Shown: in pieces, positions 11,866 to 15,664 of the stretch | Position numbering within the stretch: the first letter of the stretch is position 1 | How the letters are laid out: the number at the start of each line of letters is the position of its first letter | Virus record (IMG/VR): IMGVR_UViG_3300037231_000134 | Coordinates: 1-36,298 of that record | Strand: one strand, 5' to 3' | Length of the DNA: 36,298 nucleotides | Source of the DNA: a virus | Translations under genes and position numbers: made by a program | The notes under the pieces: model-generated | Databases searched by the model: none | What the model was told of the DNA's origin: nothing | The model's input: the letters and a program-made list of their open reading frames with translations, nothing else

Positions 11866-12084
11866 GTGAAAATAGAAACACAGATACATCTGAATAAATA
11901 CAAGCCCCGCAGCTACCAGCTTCCTATCCTTGATGCGATCGAGAATAAGGGATATAAACGCGTCATAGCTATTATGCCGCAAAACCTCTACCGTGTTATC
12001 ATGCGTTTCATCCCAATCTGTGTGGGCATGAAGCATATAAAAAATATGGATGTATTTGTAAGAATAAGAAATGAAAATAGATGA
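11866..12084 (+). pseudogene. Truncated copy of the large-terminase N-terminus
   Basis: From GTG 11866 the frame reads KIETQIHLNKYKPRSYQLPI and on to IAIMP, closely matching the start of the 12751 terminase segment. Right after MP, just before the Walker A arginines, it diverges into unrelated sequence (QNLYRVIMRF...) and stops at 12082-12084. It has lost the ATPase and nuclease domains. At DNA level the two copies are diverged, so this is not a recent duplication. It probably marks the original terminase start left behind when the HNH gene and a second N-terminus came in. Confidence 0.65.
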
Positions 12085-12782
12085 ACAATAAAAAAATCAT
12101 TGATCGCACCGGTGAAAAAATAGGTAAATGGAACATCTTAGAAACTGTTATAGTTGATTCTGGTTATCGCCGTCAAACAATGTATAAAGGCCAATGTGAA
12201 TGTGGCGAAATACAACTTATTTATCCATCAAATCTTAATAAGTTTAAAACTAGTCAGTGCAAGCGATGTTATATCAACGGATATACAGTTGATATAATAG
12301 GTCAATCATTTGGACATTTAAAAGTACTCAAATTTATCTCTCAAGATAAAAGATATGATAAATGGTATGAATGTCTTTGTTCCTGTGGAAACATAACTAA
12401 ATGCAGTGGAAGTTCATTAAGATCAGAAAGGCGTAAACGTTGTCAAAAATGTAAAATACAAATACATCAAAAGCAATTGCAAACCCACAAGATGAAGGGC
12501 ACTTCGACTTATAATATTTGGATGGGAATTAAAGCACGTTGTTTAAATCCTTGCAATAAAGCATACAAAAATTACGGAGGTCGAGGGATTAAACTTGATC
12601 CGCGTTGGCATAAGTTTGCATACTTTTTTGAAGACATGGGTGCTAGACCCGAAGGAATGCAAATAGACCGTATTAATAATGACGGCCCGTATACTAAAGA
12701 TAATTGTAGATGGACTACGGCAAAAATAAATTCAAATAACCGGAGAAAAAATGCGAGTAGAGACACAAATAAAATTGAATAA
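12081..12782 (+). CDS. HNH-type homing endonuclease, family A copy 1
   Basis: 233 residues. Two cysteine knuckle sets (CECGE...CKRC and CSCGN...CQKC) precede a C-terminal nuclease region with KNYGGRGIKLDPRW, FEDMGARPEGMQIDRINNDG and NCRWTT, the signature of a common phage HNH family. Its 3' end overlaps the second terminase start by 32 nt, so the last residues after NNRRKN are read from terminase sequence. Sits between two copies of the terminase N-terminus, as expected of a freestanding homing gene that invaded terL. Confidence 0.85.
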   Translation: MNNKKIIDRTGEKIGKWNILETVIVDSGYRRQTMYKGQCECGEIQLIYPSNLNKFKTSQCKRCYINGYTVDIIGQSFGHLKVLKFISQDKRYDKWYECLCSCGNITKCSGSSLRSERRKRCQKCKIQIHQKQLQTHKMKGTSTYNIWMGIKARCLNPCNKAYKNYGGRGIKLDPRWHKFAYFFEDMGARPEGMQIDRINNDGPYTKDNCRWTTAKINSNNRRKNASRDTNKIE

Positions 12783-12876
12783 ATATGTCCCAAGAAGTTA
12801 CCAGCTTCCTATTTTGGATGCTATTGAGAATAAAGGTTATCGTCGCGTAATAGCAATTATGCCGAGACGGGCCTAG
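12751..12876 (+). CDS. terL: Large terminase, N-terminal segment up to Walker A
   Basis: ATG 12751 has CCGGAGAAAAA upstream, a good ribosome site. The product reads MRVETQIKLNKYVPRSYQLP and on to IAIMPRRA, then meets TAG at 12874. The next family residues, GKDVTAFNLM, are encoded from 12897 in another frame after a 23-nt gap. Walker A is thus split between PRRA and GKD. Read alone this is a 41-residue peptide without a nucleotide-binding site. Confidence 0.7.
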   Translation: MRVETQIKLNKYVPRSYQLPILDAIENKGYRRVIAIMPRRA

Positions 12877-12896
12877 CCCTTCGGGGCAAATAAACA
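12874..12896 (+). other. 23-nt interruption of terL with stop codon and UUCG hairpin
   Basis: Removing exactly these 23 nt (TAGCCCTTCGGGG then CAAATAAACA) joins GCC to GGA and restores PRRA-GKD. They begin with an in-frame TAG; GCCC-TTCG-GGGC (12876-12887) forms a C(UUCG)G tetraloop hairpin. A competing hairpin GGGC-CTA-GCCC (12869-12879) is also possible. The downstream frame is closed by TAA at 12891, so a simple -1 frameshift cannot cross. Confidence 0.75.
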
Positions 12897-12923
12897 GGAA
12901 AAGACGTAACCGCCTTCAACTTA

Positions 12924-14129
12924 ATGATACGTGCAGCGCTTAAGAAAATCGCAGTCTATTACTATATATTTCCTACGTATTCACAAGCTAAGAAAGTTAT
13001 ATGGGATGCTATCAACAATGATGGTTTAAAATTTTTAGATTATATTCCTTCTGAGCTCATCGAATCTACCAATTCACAAGAAATGAAGATTCGATTCAAG
13101 AATGGTTCACTTATCCAGTTGGTTGGTTCCGATAACATTGATACGCTTGTGGGGACTAATCCGGTTGGTTTAGTCTTTTCAGAATATGCTCTTCAAGACC
13201 CCCGTGCCTACCAGTTTCTAAGACCAATATTAATAGCAAACGATGGATGGGCTCTATTTATTAGCACTCCACGCGGAAAAAACCATATGTGGGAAATGTA
13301 TAATATCGCCCTGAATTCTAAAGAATGGTTTGCCTATAAACTTACCGTTGAAGATACCCAACATGTTTCTATGCTAGAAATTGAAAAAGACCGAGCTGAA
13401 GGTATGATCTCTGACGATCTTATACAACAGGAGTGGTTTACATCGTTCTCGCTGGGGGTAGAGGGCTCTTATTATGCAAAATATATCGACCGTATGCGCC
13501 TTAAGGGACAAATTGGTATCGTACCATGGGAATCAGCTTTTAAAGTTCATACAGTATGGGATTTGGGTGTTCGCGATTCAACCGCAATAATCTTCTTCCA
13601 AACAATCGGCCAAACGGTTCGCATAATAGACTGTTACGAGAAATCTAAAGAGGGACTTGAGCATTATGTCAAGATCCTTAATAATAAGCCCTATACTTAT
13701 GGAAAACATATCTTTCCGCATGATGTGCGTGTTATGGAACTTGGTTCGGGGATAACTCGTATAGAGAAACTAAGGCAACTTGGAATTCGAGTAACTATTG
13801 CGGAGGATGTTTCTATTGTTGATGGGATTGAAGCGGTTCGCTCATGTCTTGGTAAGGTCTGGATTGATGAAGTAAGCTGCTCAACATTGATAAAAGCGCT
13901 TGAGAACTATCGACAAGAGTACGATGTGAAGCGTAAAGTATACAAAGATCACCCTCTCCATGACATTAATTCACATTTTGCAGACTCTTTTAGGTATCTG
14001 GCGATCTCGTTGCCTAAAACACGTGACGGTCTCAGCCCCGAAGCACTCGAAAAGAGATTCCAAGAAGCCGTTTATGGTGTAAATTCTAATATGCCTTCCA
14101 TTTTCCGCGAAGACCTTCCTCCCTATTGA
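12924..14129 (+). CDS. terL: Large terminase, ATPase/nuclease body
   Basis: The first ATG in frame is 12924, but coding homology begins at GGA 12897 (GKDVTAFNLM). No ribosome site precedes 12924, so this part needs to be joined to the 12751 segment. Visible motifs are Walker B-like VGLVFSEYAL, coupling motif FISTPRGKNH, and RNase H-fold nuclease acids in VWDLGVRDSTAIIFF, FPHDVRVMEL and HDINSHFADSFRYLAI. The enzyme translocates DNA into the prohead and cuts concatemers at the portal. About 401 residues here plus 51 upstream give a normal terminase length. Confidence 0.85.
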   Translation: MIRAALKKIAVYYYIFPTYSQAKKVIWDAINNDGLKFLDYIPSELIESTNSQEMKIRFKNGSLIQLVGSDNIDTLVGTNPVGLVFSEYALQDPRAYQFLRPILIANDGWALFISTPRGKNHMWEMYNIALNSKEWFAYKLTVEDTQHVSMLEIEKDRAEGMISDDLIQQEWFTSFSLGVEGSYYAKYIDRMRLKGQIGIVPWESAFKVHTVWDLGVRDSTAIIFFQTIGQTVRIIDCYEKSKEGLEHYVKILNNKPYTYGKHIFPHDVRVMELGSGITRIEKLRQLGIRVTIAEDVSIVDGIEAVRSCLGKVWIDEVSCSTLIKALENYRQEYDVKRKVYKDHPLHDINSHFADSFRYLAISLPKTRDGLSPEALEKRFQEAVYGVNSNMPSIFREDLPPY

Positions 14130-14162: not shown

Positions 14163-14669
14163 ATGATAGGAACGAAATATAATAAATGGACAGTCATTTC
14201 TGATGCCTCTAAAGACAAATGGGGCGCATATCAATACAAATGCCAATGTGATTGCGGCACGATCAATATTATTAGAAGAAGCGATTTAGCATCTCAAAAA
14301 TCATTGCAATGCCGTTCTTGCGGTTATAAAAACAAGCGACAAGGAATTCCTAAATTAAAATCACCTATTGCTGGCAAGGGAAATAATTATAAACATGGAA
14401 TGAATAAGTCCAGAACTTATAGTAGTTGGGCTTCAATGATAAATAGATGTTCGGGATCGATGAGTGGCAAAAATTATAAGTGGTACGGAATCAAAGGGAT
14501 TAAAGTTTGCGAATCATGGCTAAAGTTTGAATGTTTTTATAGGGACATGGGAAAACGACCTCTAAAAACAGTACTAGATAGAATTGATAATAATAAGGGA
14601 TATGAACCGGGAAATTGTCGTTGGGCTACATATACCGAATCTTCTAGAAACCGTTATTGTTGTAAATAG
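14163..14669 (+). CDS. HNH-type homing endonuclease, family A copy 2
   Basis: 168 residues, in the gap after the terminase. MIGTKYNKWTVISDA opens as in the 15209 copy; CQCDCG...CRSCG is the zinc knuckle; YKWYGIKGIKVCESW, FYRDMGKRP, LDRIDNNKGYEPGNCRWAT give the nuclease signature. No strong ribosome site is seen. Probably freestanding and selfish, with no role in the virion. Confidence 0.8.
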   Translation: MIGTKYNKWTVISDASKDKWGAYQYKCQCDCGTINIIRRSDLASQKSLQCRSCGYKNKRQGIPKLKSPIAGKGNNYKHGMNKSRTYSSWASMINRCSGSMSGKNYKWYGIKGIKVCESWLKFECFYRDMGKRPLKTVLDRIDNNKGYEPGNCRWATYTESSRNRYCCK

Positions 14670-15142: not shown

Positions 15143-15208
15143 ACTTGCGCTTGAAATGTAGCGTACCTAGACTTGTGTCTAACCAGACATAATATTCGAG
15201 GAGTTGCA

Positions 15209-15664
15209 TTGATCGGATCTGTCTTTAATAAATGGACTGTAATTGCCGAAGCGGGATCGCCTTCTTTAGTTAAAGCTCGATGCGAATGCGGAACAACCAA
15301 AATTCATTTAAAGACTCGTTTGGCGGTTGGCGCAACTACAAAATGCCTTTCTTGTTCTAACAAAGAAAATAATACTATTCACGGCAATACCGCTTCTCGT
15401 TCTTATAATATATGGCGCCAGATGATTAGAAGATGTGTAGATCCTACTTTTAAAGGTTATAAAAATTATGGCGGCCGTGGTATAAAAGTTTGTGAGCGTT
15501 GGTATAAGTTTCAAAACTTTTTATTCGATATGGGTGAAAAACCTGAAGGATTACAAATTGACCGCACTAATAATGACGGCAATTATGAACCATCAAATTG
15601 TCGCTGGGTAACGCCTAAGCAAAACTGTGCAAACCGAAGAATAAAAGTTTCAGGGAGAGATTAA
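15209..15664 (+). CDS. HNH-type homing endonuclease, family A copy 3
   Basis: 151 residues. I start it at TTG 15209 because CGAGGAG lies just upstream and the product then opens MIGSVFNKWTVIAEA, like the 14163 copy. CECGTT...CLSCSN is the zinc knuckle; YKNYGGRGIKVCERW, FDMGEKPEGLQIDRTNNDG and NCRWVTP the nuclease signature. It ends one base before the portal start, so insertion was neatly intergenic. Confidence 0.8.
   Translation: MIGSVFNKWTVIAEAGSPSLVKARCECGTTKIHLKTRLAVGATTKCLSCSNKENNTIHGNTASRSYNIWRQMIRRCVDPTFKGYKNYGGRGIKVCERWYKFQNFLFDMGEKPEGLQIDRTNNDGNYEPSNCRWVTPKQNCANRRIKVSGRD

Follow-up and report, generated by a model that had tools for sequence, protein, structure and literature searches.

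A precedent for a ribosome passing over an interruption in an essential phage gene is gene 60 of phage T4. The origin of the T4 gap has been ascribed to protection against homing (PMC5009743), and the bypass is described as a peculiarity of T4 that its relatives lack (PMC3014915); a cited review knows of no natural in-frame stop-hop. Here we analyse a 36,298-nucleotide (nt) stretch of viral DNA (IMG/VR record IMGVR_UViG_3300037231_000134, positions 1 to 36,298; hereafter the window), in which terL, the gene for the large terminase subunit, is split within its Walker A motif by 23 nt containing a stop codon and a UUCG hairpin. We tentatively favour, at a little short of an even chance, the explanation that these 23 nt may be an insert at a homing hotspot, tolerated through ribosomal recoding as in T4 gene 60.

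The two loci share much of their anatomy. In both, an HNH endonuclease gene (mobA in T4) lies 5' of the split essential gene, the N-terminal part is short and re-started (46 codons in T4, 41 in the window), an in-phase TAG is followed by a UUCG hairpin, the gap length is 2 modulo 3 (50 and 23 nt, respectively), the break falls at a catalytic motif and the gap is missing from relatives (PMC3014915, PMC5009743). The T4 gap begins GGA TAGCCTTCGGGCTATC, and its window counterpart begins GCC TAGCCCTTCGGGGCAA. Apart from the gene concerned and the gap length, the cases differ in that other breaks recur in the relatives of the window phage and in that the window case is known from sequence alone. The tetrapeptide NKYV, about 30 residues before A41, recalls the T4 nascent-peptide signal KKYK, but intact relatives conserve this region too, and a truncated upstream copy of terL described below has NKYK. 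Bypassing has likewise been proposed for a phage terminase gene in Streptomyces phage Hau3 (cited in PMC5009743), although that proposal is tied to host decoding of UUA, with neither insert nor homing gene involved, and we found no mechanism in the Hau3 literature applicable to the window break.

The N-terminal open reading frame (12751-12876) reads ...IMPRRA-TAG, with GCC at 12871-12873 and TAG at 12874-12876, and GGA AAA GAC GTA begins at 12897 in frame +2; the break thus falls between codons 41 and 42, in Walker A. The insert, TAGCCCTTCGGGGCAAATAAACA, occupies 12874-12896, cutting at 12873-12895 being equivalent, and its deletion in silico gives PRRAGKDVTAFN, as read in relatives, in which PRR[AS]GKD is mostly uninterrupted. 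These results recover the split at the coordinates given in an earlier note on this DNA and bear out its claim that exact removal restores the motif. A stop codon directly 3' of the last codon before the gap, here TAG after GCC, is expected in 4.6% of random 23-nt inserts. The part of the gene beyond the break shows no decay: it departs from no column that 97% or more of relatives conserve, and its conserved ATPase and nuclease sequence identifies the product, 76% identical to its nearest relative, as a terminase large subunit (phrog_2). Besides the split gene and the upstream N-terminal relic, no second terL was found in the window.

The comparison with relatives took in about 190 distinct terL loci, 189 of which cover the break site; one relative set had been picked by whole-gene score and was biased to unbroken genes, and the later sets were chosen regardless of Walker A integrity. 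Small breaks within codons 38-44 were present in seven phages, including that of the window (Table 1), whereas the rest of the gene (~1.2 kb) was broken only in L145, L289 (a candidate) and L330. With this background of 3 in 189 x 1,200 nt, 0.05 breaks would be expected in 21 nt against the seven seen (Poisson P = 2e-13), indicating that Walker A is a well-supported break hotspot. The record of each broken relative holds one terL, and among 60 listed cultured relatives no broken site was found. In L145 (3250-3262), the +1 break is at CCC TTG, about residue 249 and outside Walker A. A common ancestral stop in L185 and L214 was ruled out, as L218, which lies between them, is intact. The C-terminal parts are under constraint: their dN/dS ratios (non-synonymous to synonymous substitution rates) were 0.033 (L214-L218), 0.063 (L214-L185) and 0.030 (L275-L274), with no relaxed constraint on the L275 branch and some on the L214 branch.

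Misassembly or a mixed population, in which strains with and without the element were misjoined at a conserved motif to produce false small indels, would be one source of such breaks. The window insert occurs in one record only, the consensus is metagenome-derived and co-occurring phages share a highly conserved Walker A, all of which this explanation would accommodate. However, other breaks at Walker A repeat in separate records: that of L307, L308 and L309 was found in three metagenome records (99.9% identical, some possibly from related samples) and that of L275 also in L367, that is, in two records whose samples are possibly related. Such recurrence argues that the breaks are real DNA. Moreover, other conserved intein sites lack breaks, the window offers no source for the 23 nt and wrongly joined strains would not be expected to yield recodable contexts; we therefore consider an assembly error unlikely. 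The earlier note had regarded a one-off insert among continuous relatives as the mark of an error. Most relatives are indeed continuous and none shares this exact insert, but the same codons are hit repeatedly by other small breaks, which makes the window break unlike a random one-off.

The sequence contexts of the breaks are best read as sites of recoding in this family. A single textbook recoding event per break would restore exactly PRR[AS]GKD in all six broken relatives. In all four +1 breaks the A-site codon is a stop, AGA or AGG, and three of the four would also permit re-pairing of the P-site transfer RNA; when 1-nt insertions were placed at random in 154 real alleles of the Walker A site, only 15% were exactly +1-restorable with such a codon in the A site (21% for 1-nt duplications). 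The sole -1 case, L311, has a canonical XXXYYYZ heptamer, which is produced by 1.3% of random deletions, and is a clean candidate for -1 frameshifting. In the sole +6 case, L214, a stop stands between cognate codons, an arrangement found in 0.5% of random 6-nt inserts. The contexts of L275, L185, L308 and L180 resemble the bacterial RF2-type +1 and Ty1-type CUU AGG C sites, and that of L311 resembles known -1 sites. Unlike those systems, the candidate sites here coincide with terL Walker A breaks, differ between phages and come without identified stimulators. Because restorable breaks are commoner than under random lesions, these contexts favour a homing-hotspot insert tolerated by recoding.

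Table 1. Coordinates of the terL region in the window and of Walker A breaks in related loci (positions for L214 and L311 refer to those loci)
Feature	Position	Strand	Break (nt)	Description
terL N-terminal part	12751..12873	+		41 codons, MRVETQ...IMPRRA; TAG directly 3'
Insert	12874..12896	+	23	In-phase TAG; GCCC-UUCG-GGGC hairpin 12876-12887; TAA 12891-12893 in downstream frame
terL C-terminal part	12897..14129	+		GKDVTAFN... to stop; remainder of ATPase plus nuclease domain; phrog_2 terminase large subunit
Truncated upstream terL N-terminus	11866..11979	+		MKIETQIHLNKYKPRSYQLPILDAIENKGYKRVIAIMP; first codon GTG; frame open from TTG 11854; direct repeat
Stretch between relic and HNH gene	11980..12080	+		One frame reads KPLPCYHAFHPNLCGHEAYKKYGCICKNKK*
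HNH endonuclease gene, free-standing homing type	12081..12782	+		phrog_374, 9.4e-58; 3' end overlaps terL start
Second HNH endonuclease gene	14163..14669	+		Directly 3' of terL; phrog_374, 1.2e-44
L180			+1	GCC A GGC (GCC AGG C)
L185			+1	GGG TAA; slip GGG to GGU
L214	2160-2180		+6	GGT TAA GGC between PRRA and KD; stop-hop geometry with cognate glycine codons
L275			+1	CCC TAG; slip CCC to CCU
L307/L308/L309			+1	AAA AGA; slip to AAA
L311	2490-2510		-1	TCG GGA AAG; lost nucleotide creates slippery heptamer G GGA AAG exactly at SGKD

The routes by which the window insert might be crossed are more restricted. As the earlier note claimed, a single +1 or -1 frameshift cannot do so, since the TAG and the TAA, which lies in the GKD frame, block either shift; two +1 shifts would add residues to the P-loop. 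A hop from GCC 12871 to GCA 12886 enters the wrong frame and terminates at the TAA, a hop from CGG 12868 to CGG 12882 enters the right frame but hits the same TAA, and landing on GCC at 12912 would drop GKDVTA. A separate start for the C-terminal part was also rejected, as its first ATG is at 12924, past the Walker A lysine. Removal of the 23 nt from the RNA before translation, as a degenerate intron or another processed element, would restore terL by exact excision. Nevertheless, covariance models matched no Rfam family, group I and other introns included, a self-splicing intron needs more than 23 nt, and the exons showed no pairing of the archaeal bulge-helix-bulge type; we consider this route very improbable. 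Splicing from the upstream relic was rejected because the relic lacks RRA.

The surroundings of the break point to homing. The HNH gene upstream, which the earlier note had reported as abutting terL, in fact overlaps its start, and 5' of this gene lies a truncated terL N-terminus that the earlier note had overlooked. This relic is 77% identical to the terL start over 107 nt (87% in protein over the aligned part) and ends after IMP, three codons short of the Walker A break, which places both its end and the insert no further than 9 nt from the same codons. A relic cut at the break site, with an HNH gene between the two copies, argues that a homing-type rearrangement used this site, and its undecayed state argues that the event was recent. 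The HNH unit and a new terL start appear to have landed at Walker A, displacing the old start. That the HNH enzyme would cut the insert-free site and spare the insert-bearing one is suggested only by the end of the relic at that site. For the stretch between the relic and the HNH gene, no convincing relative was found in the fetched loci or annotated phages. HNH genes stand on both sides of terL, those at 14163-14669 and 15173-15664 being kin of the first. An HNH gene likewise overlaps terL in relative L005, but there terL is continuous.

Inteins occupy the same codons in other members of the family. They were found at PRR|[AS]GKD in five relatives: L014/L015 (one phage type), L016, L106, L181 and L246. 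Mycobacteriophage TerL inteins target the same motif (PMC5050341), although their sites a and b are offset by a few residues and the window has no intein, its insert being 23 nt long and out of frame. Across the family, large in-frame inserts, probably inteins, occur at terL residues 40, 123, 164, 222, 265 and 402-428, most commonly at 123. In L204 (2501-5123), a truncated terL that stops at residue 225, where an intein site lies, is followed by a near-complete copy with an insert, probably an intein, at 222-224; in L002 (5714-5887) and L061 (2506-2694), relic pieces of terL lie 3' of an intact terL, beside inserted genes. With the HNH gene and the relic in the window and the inteins at the site, a homing cause of the hotspot is likely, though indirectly supported.

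The insert itself may record how the break arose. Within the window, a UUCG loop closed by 3 bp or more occurs only in its hairpin, GCCC-TTCG-GGGC. Taken alone, this hairpin is unremarkable in stability (-7.8 kcal/mol, z 0.06); once the upstream exon is included, an alternative stem (UGCC..GGGC/GCCC..GGCA) is favoured. In reverse complement, the insert reads VYLPRRA, the broken motif itself, in codons unlike the neighbouring ones, and together with the adjacent exon the insert forms a quasi-palindrome in which all three mismatches are synonymous for MPRRA. This antisense match to the terL family, bettered by only 0.03% of shuffles, would be in keeping with an inverted filler derived from a different terL allele. 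No source of the 23 nt was found elsewhere in the window, and a direct search of viral contigs for the putative source allele, TTGCCCCGAAGGGC-NGGNAARGAY, found none.

These features would suit a fresh and lethal repair scar: a homing endonuclease would have cut Walker A, a short filler, perhaps part of a different terL allele in inverted orientation, would have bridged the ends, and TerL would be dead, with the genome surviving only by co-infection or as a dying lineage. The proximity of the relic to the insert and the recent date of the event speak for such a scar. On the other hand, the antisense match covers just 16 of the 23 nt and 1-8% of random UUCG hairpins reach the same signal, and a scar explains neither the recodable contexts of the other breaks nor the recurrence of the broken L308 and L275 phages across records. 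We regard the lethal scar as a serious possibility, close behind a recoded insert. An origin as repair filler is compatible with later use as a bypassed gap.

Several observations weigh against a homing-hotspot insert tolerated by recoding. T4 bypassing requires matched codons, whereas the sole frame-correct landing codon in the window is ACA, which does not encode alanine, against the take-off codon GCC; the earlier note had likewise seen no matching pair, and its analogy with gene 60 holds for the anatomy (the 5' HNH gene, short N-terminal part, TAG and UUCG hairpin) but fails on this rule. The window stem has 4 bp against 10 bp in T4; whereas a T4-type take-off stem-loop includes the take-off codon and has a stable tetraloop, the window hairpin has the UUCG loop but begins after that codon. 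The insert is unique to the window, with no exact match to 22 nt of it in the viral collection. Every break is limited to one phage and diverged relatives share none, so age or persistence is not demonstrated; L218, the closest intact sister of L214, does not share its break, and L214 has accumulated eight amino-acid changes against one in L218 (P = 0.005). The other intein sites (123, 164 and 222) have no small breaks. HNH genes show no clear enrichment next to the other broken terL genes, with one in L275, a partial match in L214 and none in L180, L185, L308 or L311. Finally, the textbook criteria, the slow-codon criterion included, were applied post hoc, and the combined strength of the recoding contexts needs caution. 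Since GCC is unmatched to ACA and the insert is unique, recoding in the window is the less secure half of the explanation and the least secure of the cases.

In the favoured explanation, a recoded insert at a homing target, the terL Walker A coding site would be a homing hotspot in this phage family. An HNH-linked rearrangement would have displaced the old terL start, leaving a new start and the 23-nt insert, whose retention may be due to its disrupting a homing endonuclease target. Some ribosomes would take off from GCC at the TAG, move past the UUCG hairpin and restart decoding at GGA 12897, giving full TerL at a reduced level, and the other six breaks would be repaired exactly by +1 or -1 frameshifting or by a stop-hop. 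The anatomy, the truncated copy, the hotspot, the recodable contexts and the constraint on the C-terminal part are observed, whereas we infer that the HNH enzyme or intein nucleases cleave the site, that the insert protects it and that recoding takes place; the link to homing is strengthened because a truncated upstream terL copy and inteins meet at the same codons.

Broken terL genes of this kind are split or missed by annotation pipelines. If the explanation is true, the family would add natural stop-hop and bypass candidates. A repeatedly broken but ribosome-repairable catalytic motif in an essential packaging enzyme would also offer a natural comparative test of the homing-protection idea. 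The broader proposal, that phages evade homing at terL Walker A by self-made frame breaks mended at the ribosome through frameshifting, stop-hopping or bypassing, is still doubtful. Were it true, T4 gene 60 would be one case of a general class of recoding-rescued resistance alleles at homing targets, and the window would be a bypass of 23 nt in which an imperfect landing codon is tolerated, showing how the hosts of selfish DNA may escape it without loss of an essential protein.
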